Assembly: GCA_028715885.1 (NCBI GenBank)
Contig: JAQUQX010000008.1
Coordinates: forward strand, 1 to 54,674
Length of the DNA stretch: 54,674 nucleotides
DNA from: Candidatus Methanoperedens sp.
GTDB lineage: Archaea > Halobacteriota > Methanosarcinia > Methanosarcinales > Methanoperedenaceae
Direction of reading: 5' to 3'
Positions 11,562-28,865 of the stretch are shown piece after piece. The notes beneath the pieces were generated by a model that was given only the letters and a program-made list of their open reading frames with translations, was not told the origin of the DNA and did not search any database. The first letter of the stretch is position 1; each line of letters starts with the position of its first letter. The translations under genes were made by a program, and so were the position numbers.

Positions 11562-11855
11562 ATGGACGCTTCAAAAATAAAGCAGGGTATCCATAAATCC
11601 AAAGGCGGGCTTATCAGGTCATTCGTGACCATAGAAAACGGCGCAATCAAAGATATTGACGTTTCAGGAGATTTTTTTTTGTTTCCCGAAGAGGCTTTCT
11701 TCAAAATAATCAAGGAATTAAAAGGAATTCCGGCAAAACGTGGAAAAATACAGGAAATTATTGAGAAAACATACGAAAAAGAGAACATCCAGTCGCCGGG
11801 AACCGAGCCTTGCGATTTCACAGAATCCATAATGAAAGCGCTGGAGGATACATGA
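11562..11855 (+). CDS. lplB: Lipoate-protein ligase accessory subunit
   Basis: 97 aa, equivalent to the C-terminal domain of bacterial LplA made as a separate protein, as in Thermoplasma. KSKGGLIRSFVTIENG and GDFFLFPEEA match the accessory fold. In split ligases this subunit is needed for activation of lipoate to lipoyl-AMP. Its stop overlaps the lplA start (ATGA), so the two are translationally coupled. Confidence 0.8.
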   Translation: MDASKIKQGIHKSKGGLIRSFVTIENGAIKDIDVSGDFFLFPEEAFFKIIKELKGIPAKRGKIQEIIEKTYEKENIQSPGTEPCDFTESIMKALEDT

Positions 11856-12622
11856 ACAGATGGCGCTTCATTGACTTCGGGCTGGTGGATATACGCGATA
11901 TGATGGCAATGGATGAAGCCATATTGAAAGGGGATGAGGGCAACACATTCTTTTTCTGGACACCGAAAAAATCCATAATCCTCGGGTATTTCCAGAAGGC
12001 TGAGGTGGAACTGAACCTCGCAAACTGCAAGGAATATACAATCACGCGCCGTATAAGCGGAGGCGGTATAGCGTTCTCGGACGACTTGGGAAGACAGATT
12101 AATTACGGCGTCGTGGGAACAATAGACAACGACCTGTTCCCGCTTGACATCATCGGCTCATACAAACAGATATGCGGAGTCCTCATAGACACGCTCATCC
12201 ATTACGGTCTGAACGCGGCGTTCCGTCCCATAAACGATGTTGTTGTGACCCCGTATTTAAATACGGGGACTAAGGGTGCCAGGAAAATCTCAGGCAACGC
12301 CCAGACGCGATGGGAAGGTAAACTGCTCCAGAACGGGACGTTGCTGCTTGATTTTGATATTGAGGAGATGCTTCGGATTTCAAATATACCGAGAGAAAAA
12401 TTCCTTGATAAAAAGATAGCGTCAATCAGGGAAGGACTTACATGGCTTGACCGCGAACTCGGGGAACAGCGGGATATGGAAGAGGTAAAGGGTATCATGA
12501 AGAGAAAATTCGAGGAAAGATTCAATGTCAGGTTAAAAACAGGAAAACTAAGCGAAAAAGAGACGGCTCTTACAAACAGTCTTTTGCCAAAGTATTATTC
12601 TCCTGAGTGGGTATTTCGCTGA
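11852..12622 (+). CDS. lplA: Lipoate-protein ligase catalytic subunit, with inserted TPYLNTGT peptide
   Basis: 256 aa. Catalytic motifs: the RRISGGGIAFSDDLG loop that holds the lipoyl-adenylate, INYGVV, and the KISGNAQTR segment with the lysine that contacts the adenylate. It attaches lipoate to lysines of H-protein, E2 subunits or lipoate-binding proteins. ATG 11852 in the ATGA junction with lplB is the start. Residues 133-140 (TPYLNTGT) are encoded by a 24-nt palindromic block also found in two unrelated genes of this window. It lies between NDVVV and GARKISG, a short hairpin loop in normal homologs, next to the active site. Activity with this insert is untested. Confidence 0.88.
   Translation: MNRWRFIDFGLVDIRDMMAMDEAILKGDEGNTFFFWTPKKSIILGYFQKAEVELNLANCKEYTITRRISGGGIAFSDDLGRQINYGVVGTIDNDLFPLDIIGSYKQICGVLIDTLIHYGLNAAFRPINDVVVTPYLNTGTKGARKISGNAQTRWEGKLLQNGTLLLDFDIEEMLRISNIPREKFLDKKIASIREGLTWLDRELGEQRDMEEVKGIMKRKFEERFNVRLKTGKLSEKETALTNSLLPKYYSPEWVFR
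12248..12276 (+). repeat. In-frame palindromic element, copy 1 (in lplA)
   Basis: ACC, then the perfect palindrome CCCCGTATTTAAATACGGGG (12249-12268), then ACTAAGGG. All 29 nt are identical to the helicase copy at 25285-25313 read on the coding strand; the first 24 are identical to the copy at 28113-28136. Read in frame as TPYLNTGT. In mRNA it would form an 8-bp hairpin with a UUAA loop. Confidence 0.93.
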
Positions 12623-23612: not shown

Positions 23613-26081
23613 TCAACTCCCCTCCATCCTCTCCCTCAGCCCCCTCGCCTTCTCACCCAGCTCCTTCTTCCCATAGCTCCCCGCAATCAACTCCACAGCC
23701 TCAAGTGCCCTCGCAGCCCCGTCGAGGTAGCCCAGAACATCCCCGGCATACGCATAAATCCCGTACTGCTTCGTAAGCTCAGCGATAATCCCCTCAGGCG
23801 ATAATCCCTCTGCGCATAGCTCTATCACCCTTGCCGAGAACTTTTTCTCGGCGCAGCCGCAGTACGGAGAATCCCTGCATGTGCATGTCATGAACTCCCG
23901 CGCAAATTCAAGCATGGTTCGGCGCAGGTTCTCTTTGAGCTTTGAAATGCCGTCGGCGGAGAGAACTATATCCATACCTGCGCCGAAAACCCTTGTGGGA
24001 ATATCGGTTCCAAGTGCGTCCGACAACTGAGAGGCATATTTGAAATACACGGCGTCAAGGGTTTCAAGCTCAGTGACAATATCCAGAGGCTTGCGTCCTT
24101 CAAGTACAGCGTTCTTTATCAGGAAGGTCTGCTCCACGGATAGGAAATGAGAAGCCACGATACTTCCAAGTTTTGTAGGGGAGATATCGTTTTTCTCGAC
24201 AAACCCGTACTCCCTGAGTTTATCCAGCAAATAATTAATATCTCCCTCGCCGAGCAGCAGACCATTTATCTTCTTAACGTCGGGGAGCTTGCGCGCAATC
24301 ACGATATTGGAAAGCGTCTCTTCAAGCATTTCATCCTCCCCGTAGTCCACGCCGAAATGCTCGAGTTCGCCTCTCAGCAGTTTGAAAGCGATTTCATCCT
24401 CTGAATCCCCTTTCCCGAATCTCCTCTCGGGGTCAGCCAGAAGCACCACCACGCCGCGGTCATGGTAATCCGGTCTTCCCGCGCGCCCCAGCATCTGCTG
24501 GAACTCGCGCACGGTCAGCCATTCGATGCCCATGGCGAGGGACTCAAAGATTACCTGCGATGCTGGGAAATCCACGCCTGCCGCAAGCGCCGCCGTTGTC
24601 ACCACCACGGGCAGCTCTCCTTTCCCGAATTTCTCTTCCACTTTCTTCCGCTCGGTATAGGAAAGTCCTGCGTGGTAGGGCAGCGCTTTAATCAAAAGCC
24701 CATCCGCCAGCACATGACAGTTCCGGCGCGAATTTGTAAAAACAATGGTCTGCCCCCTGAAACCTTTTGAGGAGCTTTTGTTGTATTCCTGCCCCGCAAG
24801 CCGCTCAATCAATCGCTTCTTCTCGTATTCAGGCGCAAAAATGAGATGTCGCTCTATCGGAACCGGGCGCTCCTCGAATTCGATTAATGCGGCGCCCAGT
24901 TTTTCAGCAAGCCACTGCGGTTTTCCCACGGTAGCCGAGAGATAAATGAACTGCGCATCCGGCGCAATGAATTTCAGGCGCGCAATCAAGCCGTCAAGCC
25001 TGTGTCCCCGTTCTTTGTCCTCAAGCATGTGCACCTCGTCAATAACTACCGTCCCTATGTTGCCAAGCGATTTCGCATTGCCTGACCTGATGACGAAATC
25101 GATGCCTTCGTAAGTCCCAACGATTATGTCCGATGAAAGCGAGGTTCGCACGCCTTTTGTGCCTTTTACTATCCTGCTGGTTCCGACCCGCAATGAAGTT
25201 GTTGCAACCGAAGAGTAACGTTTGTTGAATTGTTCATATTTCTGGTTCGCAAGCGCCACAAGAGGAACAAGGAATAACATCTTCCCCTTAGTCCCCGTAT
25301 TTAAATACGGGGTTTTAAGTATGTTCTGGATGCCAGCAAGTTCCCCTACCAGCGTTTTTCCGGTAGCTGTAGCCGAAACGATCAACTGGTTTTTCCCCTC
25401 GAGTAGTCCTGCCTCCACTGAAAGCGCCTGCACCGGCATCAGTTCTTCAAGCTGGCTAAGAAGTATCTTTTTCAGTTCGGAGGGCACAGGCAGGTCTTTT
25501 ACTTTTATCGAGCGCTCAACCCTGCTGGCTTCTATCGTATCGAACCTTGTCAATCCCGAATCCAGTTTTTCCGGACTGAGCATCGCCAGCACCCTGTCGA
25601 GATTTTTTGTTTTCAGGAGAATCTGGATGAGCCTTTCCCTGCCGTGTCTGCCTATCTTGTGCGTGGATGCTTCCCGCATGAGTTCTTTTTTGGCGCACTC
25701 TTCGCATACCAGTTCATTGCGGAAACGGATAGAATTGCTATCGACAGTGGTGTACCTGCCAGCAAGGAGGCACAGGCGGCATGTGTTTGTATATCCATAG
25801 TCCAGTTGATATGCAGCCAGGAGCTCCTTGAATCCGGCTTCAGATTCCTCATTCCCCTCTGCGATAAGTATCTTGTCGGCAAGGCGCAGGAGTTCTATGA
25901 GTTCCTCCGGCGCCCTTAATTCCTCTTTCTCGCCCTGCCTTATCCTGAATCTGCCGGCGCGCGCGCCTTTCGGCGTCCTTTTTAACGTCAGGATTCCATA
26001 AAATACAGGCTCTTTTGCATTATCTTTAATTGGCAAAACTGCGAGCTTTGAATCCTGCGGGTGTATGATTACAGAAAGCAT
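23613..26081 (-). CDS. Hel308/Ski2-like SF2 helicase with zinc-binding N-terminus and inserted TPYLNTGT peptide
   Basis: 822 aa. Residues 1-200 form an archaeal accessory domain (DUF5814-like) with a CRLC...CEEC zinc site. The helicase core has Walker A SATATGKT, DEVH box VVIDEVHMLEDKERG, LSATVGKPQWLA, and motif VI GRAGRPDYHDRG. The C-terminal part has a cysteine cluster (CTCRDSPYCGC). Probably an ATP-dependent 3'-5' nucleic-acid unwinding enzyme in repair or RNA processing. Residues 257-264 (TPYLNTGT) come from the palindromic block and sit between NILK and GKMLFLVPLVAL, a loop after the first helicase strand. Confidence 0.85.
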   Translation of the reverse strand: MLSVIIHPQDSKLAVLPIKDNAKEPVFYGILTLKRTPKGARAGRFRIRQGEKEELRAPEELIELLRLADKILIAEGNEESEAGFKELLAAYQLDYGYTNTCRLCLLAGRYTTVDSNSIRFRNELVCEECAKKELMREASTHKIGRHGRERLIQILLKTKNLDRVLAMLSPEKLDSGLTRFDTIEASRVERSIKVKDLPVPSELKKILLSQLEELMPVQALSVEAGLLEGKNQLIVSATATGKTLVGELAGIQNILKTPYLNTGTKGKMLFLVPLVALANQKYEQFNKRYSSVATTSLRVGTSRIVKGTKGVRTSLSSDIIVGTYEGIDFVIRSGNAKSLGNIGTVVIDEVHMLEDKERGHRLDGLIARLKFIAPDAQFIYLSATVGKPQWLAEKLGAALIEFEERPVPIERHLIFAPEYEKKRLIERLAGQEYNKSSSKGFRGQTIVFTNSRRNCHVLADGLLIKALPYHAGLSYTERKKVEEKFGKGELPVVVTTAALAAGVDFPASQVIFESLAMGIEWLTVREFQQMLGRAGRPDYHDRGVVVLLADPERRFGKGDSEDEIAFKLLRGELEHFGVDYGEDEMLEETLSNIVIARKLPDVKKINGLLLGEGDINYLLDKLREYGFVEKNDISPTKLGSIVASHFLSVEQTFLIKNAVLEGRKPLDIVTELETLDAVYFKYASQLSDALGTDIPTRVFGAGMDIVLSADGISKLKENLRRTMLEFAREFMTCTCRDSPYCGCAEKKFSARVIELCAEGLSPEGIIAELTKQYGIYAYAGDVLGYLDGAARALEAVELIAGSYGKKELGEKARGLRERMEGS
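25285..25313 (-). repeat. In-frame palindromic element, copy 2 (in SF2 helicase)
   Basis: The palindrome occupies 25293-25312. On the coding (minus) strand the 29 nt from ACC to AAGGG are identical to the lplA copy, and the reading frame is also the same (TPYLNTGTKG). Confidence 0.93.
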
Positions 26082-27409: not shown

Positions 27410-27506
27410 TAACGACATCTGCGGTTTATAATTTCTATATATTAAAAAATTTACAGAATTTTTTCGATGAAAGTTTATATGCTTTAATACCGTTATCCTC
27501 GCTGTG

Positions 27507-28865
27507 ATGCCAGTTACTAAAACAAAAGCGCTTATAATCGCAGGCACAGGCAGCGGCGTGGGAAAGACCACAGTTGCAATGGGACTGATGACAACGCTGT
27601 GCAAAAAATACAAAGTCCAGCCTTTCAAGGTCGGACCGGACTTCATCGACCCCACCTACCACACACGCATCTGCGGGCGCCCTTCCCGGAATCTTGACAG
27701 TTTCATCATGGGTGAGCGGGGAGTGCTTGAAACCTTCGCGCGCGCTTCGCAGGGCGCTGATATTTGCATAATAGAAGGGGTGATGGGTCTTTTTGACGGT
27801 CTGGACAATACCGAAGTTGCAAGCACCGCCCATGTTGCAAAGATTCTTAATATACCGGTGATACTCGTTATCAATACGCACGGCGCATCGCGAAGCATTG
27901 CTGCAATCGTTAAAGGTTTTAGCGAATTCGACAGCGTCAATATAGCAGGAATCATTCTCAATAACGCGGGCAGCGACAGGCATGTTGGACTCATAAAGGA
28001 TTCACTGAAAAGCGCCGGTATCAAAATTCCCGTTATAGGAGCGCTCCCCAAAAATCCGGAACTGTCAATCCCGTCGCGTCATCTCGGGCTTCACATGGCA
28101 GGTGAAACGAATACCCCGTATTTAAATACGGGGACTGGGAAGCTATCGGATTTTATTGAAAACCATATCGATACAGAATCAGTAAAAACAATAGCCAGTA
28201 ATTTTACCGCGCCTGATGTGGAGTTGGATGAACCGCTGGAAAGATTCGATGTCAAAATAGGGATTGCTTATGACAGTGCATTCTGTTTCTATTATGAGGA
28301 TTCATTTGATGAACTCAGGAGGTCGGGAGCAGAGCTAATTTTTTTCAGCCCGATGACTGACAGGCTGCCGCTTGTGGGGGGGATATATATTGGTGGAGGA
28401 TATCCTGAACTCTTTGCAAAGGAACTTTCCGCCTCCCAGACGCGCCATGAGATAAAAAAAGCCGCAGAAGACGGAATGCCCATATACGGAGAATGCGGCG
28501 CGCTTTTGTATCTGAATGAAAGCCTCAGGACAGACAGGACTTATAAAATGGCAGGCATCCTTCCTGCAAGTTCGAGAATGACTGACAGGATTGCAGCGCT
28601 CGGTTATACCGAGGCGTTGGCGGTTGCAGACTCGCCTGTTGCGAAGAAGGGGAAGGTGATCAAGGGACATGAGTTCCATTATTCAGTAACGGAATGCGAT
28701 AAAGACGCGCGTTTTGTCTATAAATTGAGGCGCGGAAAAGGGATAACCGAGTGCAAAGACGGTCTCATGGAGCATAATACAATGGCAGGCTACATGCATA
28801 CCCATCCTGCATCTGTTTCCTTTGGTGAGTTTTTGCGCTGCTGCAGTAAATACAGCACACGATAG
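27507..28865 (+). CDS. cfbB: Cobyrinate / Ni-sirohydrochlorin a,c-diamide synthase, with inserted TPYLNTGT peptide
   Basis: 452 aa. N-terminal dethiobiotin-synthetase-like ATPase (GTGSGVGKTTVAMG; VGPDFIDPTYH; EGVMGLFDGLD) and C-terminal class I glutaminase domain with the nucleophile in YGECGALLYL and a late histidine in GHEFHYS. It amidates a and c acetate groups of a tetrapyrrole using glutamine and ATP, either for F430 (CfbB) or cobamide (CbiA); sequence alone does not separate the two. ATG 27507 is preferred to GTG 27504. Residues 203-210 (TPYLNTGT) are the third palindromic insertion, in the linker between HLGLHMAGE and KLSDFIENHID that joins the two domains. Confidence 0.88.
   Translation: MPVTKTKALIIAGTGSGVGKTTVAMGLMTTLCKKYKVQPFKVGPDFIDPTYHTRICGRPSRNLDSFIMGERGVLETFARASQGADICIIEGVMGLFDGLDNTEVASTAHVAKILNIPVILVINTHGASRSIAAIVKGFSEFDSVNIAGIILNNAGSDRHVGLIKDSLKSAGIKIPVIGALPKNPELSIPSRHLGLHMAGETNTPYLNTGTGKLSDFIENHIDTESVKTIASNFTAPDVELDEPLERFDVKIGIAYDSAFCFYYEDSFDELRRSGAELIFFSPMTDRLPLVGGIYIGGGYPELFAKELSASQTRHEIKKAAEDGMPIYGECGALLYLNESLRTDRTYKMAGILPASSRMTDRIAALGYTEALAVADSPVAKKGKVIKGHEFHYSVTECDKDARFVYKLRRGKGITECKDGLMEHNTMAGYMHTHPASVSFGEFLRCCSKYSTR
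28113..28136 (+). repeat. In-frame palindromic element, copy 3 (in cfbB)
   Basis: Palindrome at 28114-28133 within a 24-nt block identical to copies 1 and 2. After ACT this copy reads GGGAAG, lacking the AAG seen in the other two, so 24 nt (8 codons) is the minimal shared unit. Confidence 0.93.

Follow-up and report, generated by a model that had tools for sequence, protein, structure and literature searches.

A very short palindromic insert in the coding frame of conserved genes of Candidatus Methanoperedens

Palindromic repeats that form part of protein-coding genes are known mainly from Rickettsia and Wolbachia, plus one old archaeal report. The elements of these bacteria (RPEs and WPEs) are dispersed, many of them sit in frame in conserved protein genes, and each family contributes one peptide, which is tolerated in unstructured segments (PMC10969869, PMC2229807, PMC2996958). 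For the archaeon M. jannaschii, palindromic repeats within protein genes that are left unbroken have also been described (as cited in PMC2229807, PMC2996958). Similarly small and palindromic are the GTAG- and CGTC-tagged REPs, of 20-40 bp, which are present in many copies, some of them intragenic (PMC3733652).

We have analysed a window of 54,674 nucleotides from Candidatus Methanoperedens sp. (assembly GCA_028715885.1, contig JAQUQX010000008.1) in which the palindrome CCCCGTATTTAAATACGGGG occurs three times, against 0.01 copies expected from shuffled sequences. We believe that this feature is very probably an inserted and translated short palindromic repeat of the mobile type. No movement was observed.

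One of the copies lies in the gene of a Ski2/Hel308-type DEAD helicase with DUF5814 (822 aa; 23613-26081, minus strand), where the 24-nt core AA-CCCCGTATTTAAATACGGGG-AC occupies positions 25291-25314 of the minus strand (palindrome at 25293-25312) and adds TPYLNTG to the protein. The original prediction drew attention to 29 nucleotides identical to a stretch of the lipoate-protein ligase A gene (lplA), and this identity is real. The coding strand of the helicase reads ...CTTAAA-ACCCCGTATTTAAATACGGGGACTAAGGG-GAAG... and that of lplA ...GTTGTG-ACCCCGTATTTAAATACGGGGACTAAGGG-TGCC..., and both direct comparison and BLAST of the helicase copy (25285-25313, minus strand) against its own genome gave 100% identity over 29 nt (lplA match at 12248-12276). 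The insert is missing in 24 orthologues of the helicase, the gene being otherwise collinear, with a net gain of 21 nt. The protein reads ..GIQNILK-TPYLNTGT-KGKMLFL.. here and ..GIQNILN-KKGKMLFL.. in the orthologues, and removal of the 24 nt leaves ILN-KGK, one codon fewer than the orthologous ILNKKGK. The closest relative of this helicase comes from Candidatus Methanoperedens isolate nzgw23, with 90% identity in the best-matching segment. An AlphaFold2 model of moderate quality (mean pLDDT 69) places the insert in a coil between helix 242-255, which follows the Walker A motif, and strand 267-272, with insert residues 258-263 below pLDDT 50; the alignment with the solved relative 7ujb has a gap at the same position. 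The insert had been expected in the loop after the first helicase strand. It does lie in a coil, but one helix later, after the Walker A helix.

Insert-free orthologues were found for 13 host genes, i.e., the helicase and 12 more (family names from Pfam), and every net gain was a multiple of 3. In lplA (11810-12622, plus strand) the core, GA-palindrome-AC, covers 12247-12270 of the plus strand and is absent from 5 of the 6 orthologues (net gain 27 nt). The gene for a cobyrinate a,c-diamide synthase of the CobB/CbiA type (27504-28865, plus strand) has the core TA-palindrome-AC at 28112-28135 of the plus strand (palindrome 28114-28133), which is absent from all 4 orthologues (15 nt); a search for a solved structural relative of CobB found none. 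The remaining gains were 24 nt (ribonucleotide reductase), 18 nt (HdrA-like protein), 27 nt (phosphoglucomutase family), 39 nt (inositol monophosphatase), 42 nt (FtsJ), 12-18 nt (HisF), 6-9 nt (HGD-D), 21 nt each for an amine oxidase and an antiporter-type subunit, and 33 nt (24 in genome G022) for a gene with no Pfam match. Gains other than 24 nt require that a few host codons were lost or gained besides the insertion. In one relative (G005) the element adjoins the FtsJ gene instead of lying inside it. The ribonucleotide reductase gene (L033:1676-4969, contig C9 of the same genome as the window, G000) also contains a LAGLIDADG intein, with the 24-nt element ca. 30 residues downstream, so that two different insertions are tolerated in a single gene.

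Flank alignment and a filled/empty pair define the minimal unit as a 24-nt core, GA-CCCCGTATTTAAATACGGGG-A(C/T). Among 17 gene-oriented copies, the 5' flank has A at -1 in all 17, G at -2 in 13 and A at -3 in 15, while the 3' flank has A at +1 and T at +3 in all 17 and A at +4 in 13. The consensus AA-GA..A(C/T)-TAA is common to three genomes (G000 and two relatives). The cleanest filled/empty pair is provided by G022, with AGGATAAA[GACCCCGTATTTAAATACAGGGAT]TAACGA, against AGGATAAATAACGA in G009, G005 and G041 (L179 vs. L180-L182). Here 24 nt have been inserted between A and T without duplication and, since TAA is already in the empty site, it has to be pre-existing target context. The net gain in ribonucleotide reductase, relative to its insert-free orthologues, is also exactly 24 nt. 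The insertion point is A^T within AA^TAA-like sites. Alignment of the copies had been proposed as the way to define the ends and any target-site duplication, and it gave GA and A(C/T) as ends and no duplication, the evidence being direct at the G022 locus and consistent at others.

These data also bear on the model originally put forward, a larger directional unit including ACTAAGGG on one side. The direction is confirmed, because the ends differ (GA vs. AC or AT) and A stands opposite A at the palindrome edge, which makes the two strands unlike. A shared flank restricted to one side of the palindrome is seen in the helicase and lplA pair but not in the family, in which both sides are shared (17 copies), and the unit indeed exceeds the palindrome, but only by 2 nt on each side. 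Within ACTAAGGG, AC is the end of the element, whereas TAA belongs to the target. The TAAGGG shared with lplA (25285-25290, minus strand) would then be target TAA plus a GGG that most likely represents host K-G codons, judging by the matching codons in the orthologues, or, less probably, what is left of an outer arm, TAAGGGGAC. A larger unit does describe part of the family correctly. TAAGGGGAC directly follows the core in five copies (L024, L026, L032, L043 and L045), a 45-nt composite, GACTCCGTATAA-[24 nt]-TAAGGGGAC, is found in the inositol monophosphatase of two species (G000 and G044, with slightly different outer arms), and a composite form with the TAAGGGGAC arm is also present in FtsJ. 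However, most copies in the three genomes share nothing past TAA, and with TAA already in the empty site of the clean pair and the helicase GGG coinciding with host codons we consider the larger unit an unlikely account of the element.

The forward element has a single fully open frame, KTPYLNTGTK (K-TPYLNTG-T/I-K); a stop codon within the palindrome closes the second, and another, at GAC/GAT-TAA just after it, the third. Because of these stops, insertions inside genes would be retained nearly always in the open frame, and in loops that tolerate them. Of the 14 internal in-gene copies of G000, 12 are forward and in the TPYLNTG frame. One is reversed and reads PVFKYG (antiporter subunit), and another is forward in the third frame (Eco57I-type methylase), which only the flank ATTTC keeps open. 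Three further copies lie at the C-terminus, and another two close to the N-terminus of proteins whose start is not certain. The same peptide appears also in other genes of the relatives. One gene common to G042 and G022 (L211:705 and L214:710) has the palindrome without the usual ends and in the FPVFKYGV frame. To judge from frame and length, in-gene copies would be translated rather than removed, lengthening the protein by about eight residues. The element forms a stable hairpin (z about -3.5), and a strong hairpin in the mRNA of conserved enzymes could also bring to mind an intervening sequence cut from the RNA or skipped in translation (an archaeal intron or bypassing element). But a removed sequence would need neither a frame nor a length rule, and here forward in-gene copies are almost restricted to the open frame and the net lengths are all multiples of 3, so we reject this explanation as extremely improbable. 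No Rfam match at the gathering threshold was found across the whole window.

The palindrome is abundant in its own genome, where we counted 47 dispersed copies (up to 3 mismatches allowed), whereas the reversed control gave 0. Together with the insert-free orthologues, this supports the original view of the palindrome as an insertion belonging to a dispersed repeat. Two copies 227 bp apart with the same flanks and an N run nearby (L036:2495 and 2722) are probably a tandem duplication or the product of an assembly gap. Most sampled Methanoperedens genomes carry the element, from 0 to 44 copies across the genus and from 0 to 27 in the relatives of G000, and a sister genus has 1 copy. None was found in any of the sampled genomes from other families of the order, nor in 294 genomes from elsewhere in the phylum, so that, among the archaeal genomes covered, only members of the family Methanoperedenaceae have the palindrome. 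The exact palindrome had no match in the IMG/VR viral contigs. An assembly artefact is ruled out by the presence of the element in independent genomes of several projects, where some of the copies occupy orthologous positions.

For many G000 copies an orthologous one exists in another species, which indicates that many are old. At shared in-gene sites located through homology of the genes, 157 of 160 palindrome positions are unchanged, compared with an identity of about 70-90% in the flanks. These figures come from eight comparisons, all against G000 and hence not independent, and part of the conservation is ascertainment, since a pattern search was used to find the copies in relatives. Perfect palindromes make up 64 of 95 copies, and none of the 19 gene-associated copies is damaged, vs. 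13 of the 27 others (Fisher p 0.0002). Paired changes that preserve the palindrome are above expectation (11 double changes vs. 1.8 expected at pair 6), mainly via the GCAT subfamily (CCCCGCATTTAAATGCGGGG), in which both arms have changed together (11 of 95 copies in three genomes). Members of this subfamily are found at L058:2545, L134, L135 and L137, and an amine-oxidase gene copy is common to G000, G042 and G005. Such upkeep, and a core (TTTAAATA) that resembles the archaeal TATA box, would suit a palindrome kept by selection as a functional DNA or RNA site, whatever its origin (the target of a dimeric regulator or nucleoid protein, or an mRNA hairpin). However, the copies are in loops of unrelated enzymes with no common pathway or gene position, the copy number varies from nil to dozens within one genus, and intergenic copies decay. 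Besides, mutation that perfects palindromes, or the spread of the GCAT subfamily, could produce paired changes as well, and the conservation is in part ascertainment. A functional site is, to our mind, not a likely explanation.

The inserts of lplA and inositol monophosphatase are found in G000 and G044 only, while the sisters of these two genomes lack them, as judged against a tree in which one branch has a support of only 50. The same codons are occupied at these patchy sites (window:12249, L131, L043 and L156). A simple model in which the element is inserted and then inherited is therefore insufficient without losses, re-insertion or gene transfer, all of them possible. One could also imagine that the element is more than DNA that the host tolerates, and that a host-encoded system recognising hairpins or palindromes inserts, perfects and sometimes removes it at recurrent codons, with copying at the DNA level keeping the palindrome constant as its flanks diverge. 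We regard this as decidedly speculative and improbable; if true, one and the same loop of eight residues would come and go repeatedly in core enzymes of the genus.

As to how the repeat moves, one candidate would be a single-strand transposase that recognises hairpins and acts in trans (HUH/Y1, of the IS200-REP type). The Y1 transposase of IS200/IS605 elements inserts them 3' of a fixed short target, with no duplication. Action of this kind would explain the perfect hairpin, the lack of duplication and the TTA target on the other strand; these last two traits are observed at the element sites, the link with an enzyme would be a proposal, and we consider the mechanism tentative and rather improbable. 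No enzyme tied to the element was identified. Y1 transposase genes are present in 29 of the 31 genus genomes, the count of the Y1 family does not correlate with the number of elements (Spearman -0.21, p 0.25), and at only one of the Y1 loci examined is the element near the gene (upstream of G044:C98). A related possibility is that the element derives, in miniature form, from the IS200-like (Y1) elements of the same genomes, whose right-end hairpin, CCCCGTCCTTAAGTACGGGG, is similar. The best IS copy (L244) resembles the palindrome at about 16-17 of 20 positions, related hairpins (CCCCGTCCTTAAGTACGGGG and variants) come after several IS200-like Y1 genes (L244:1011-1030, L243:1444-1456, L242, L236, L238 and L240), and the absence of target duplication fits. 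Yet there is the lack of correlation in copy numbers, genomes with 25-27 elements (G022 and G042) have only broken copies or fragments of that Y1 subfamily, and the IS left-end flanks, judged by eye, resemble ..TTTGAAT and not TTA, so this derivation is doubtful.

Taken as an inserted, translated repeat, the Methanoperedens element is comparable to RPEs and WPEs in being a dispersed palindrome that lies in frame in unrelated conserved genes, and with 14 internal in-gene copies and 13 genes with insert-free orthologues it belongs among the protein-coding palindromic repeats. Unlike the RPEs proper of Rickettsia (about 105-150 bp, with long imperfect hairpins), it has a 24-nt core (8 codons) or 45-nt composite, a near-perfect palindrome and an archaeal host family, the Methanoperedenaceae. 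The coding palindromes of M. jannaschii, compared by description, are alike in archaeal host and in-gene insertion. In a 2005 study, the elements of that archaeon reportedly average about 100 bp, with few of them coding. The size and copy number are those of REPs, but there is no GTAG or CGTC at either end (AA-GA and A(C/T)-TAA instead) and no transposase gene flanked by the element among the Y1 loci examined; CGTC REPs likewise come without a dedicated transposase (PMC3733652). With MITEs it shares the condition of a small non-autonomous dispersed repeat, but not target-site duplication (L179 vs. L180-L182) nor recognisable terminal repeats of an autonomous partner, and its strict frame and length rule separates it from archaeal introns and bypassing elements. 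A search of the open-access literature for palindromic elements in Methanoperedens returned nothing. The element represents a new archaeal family of a kind already known; what is new about it is the sequence, the shortness of the unit, the host and an insertion site that is defined (AA^TAA). The host is an environmentally important methane-oxidising archaeon, and the core enzymes with in-frame inserts include ribonucleotide reductase, FtsJ, HisF, LplA and an HdrA-like protein. With a clear insertion site and many filled/empty gene pairs across species, direct comparison can now address the old question raised by the palindromic repeats, namely whether inserts of this sort benefit the protein, are neutral or are selfish.
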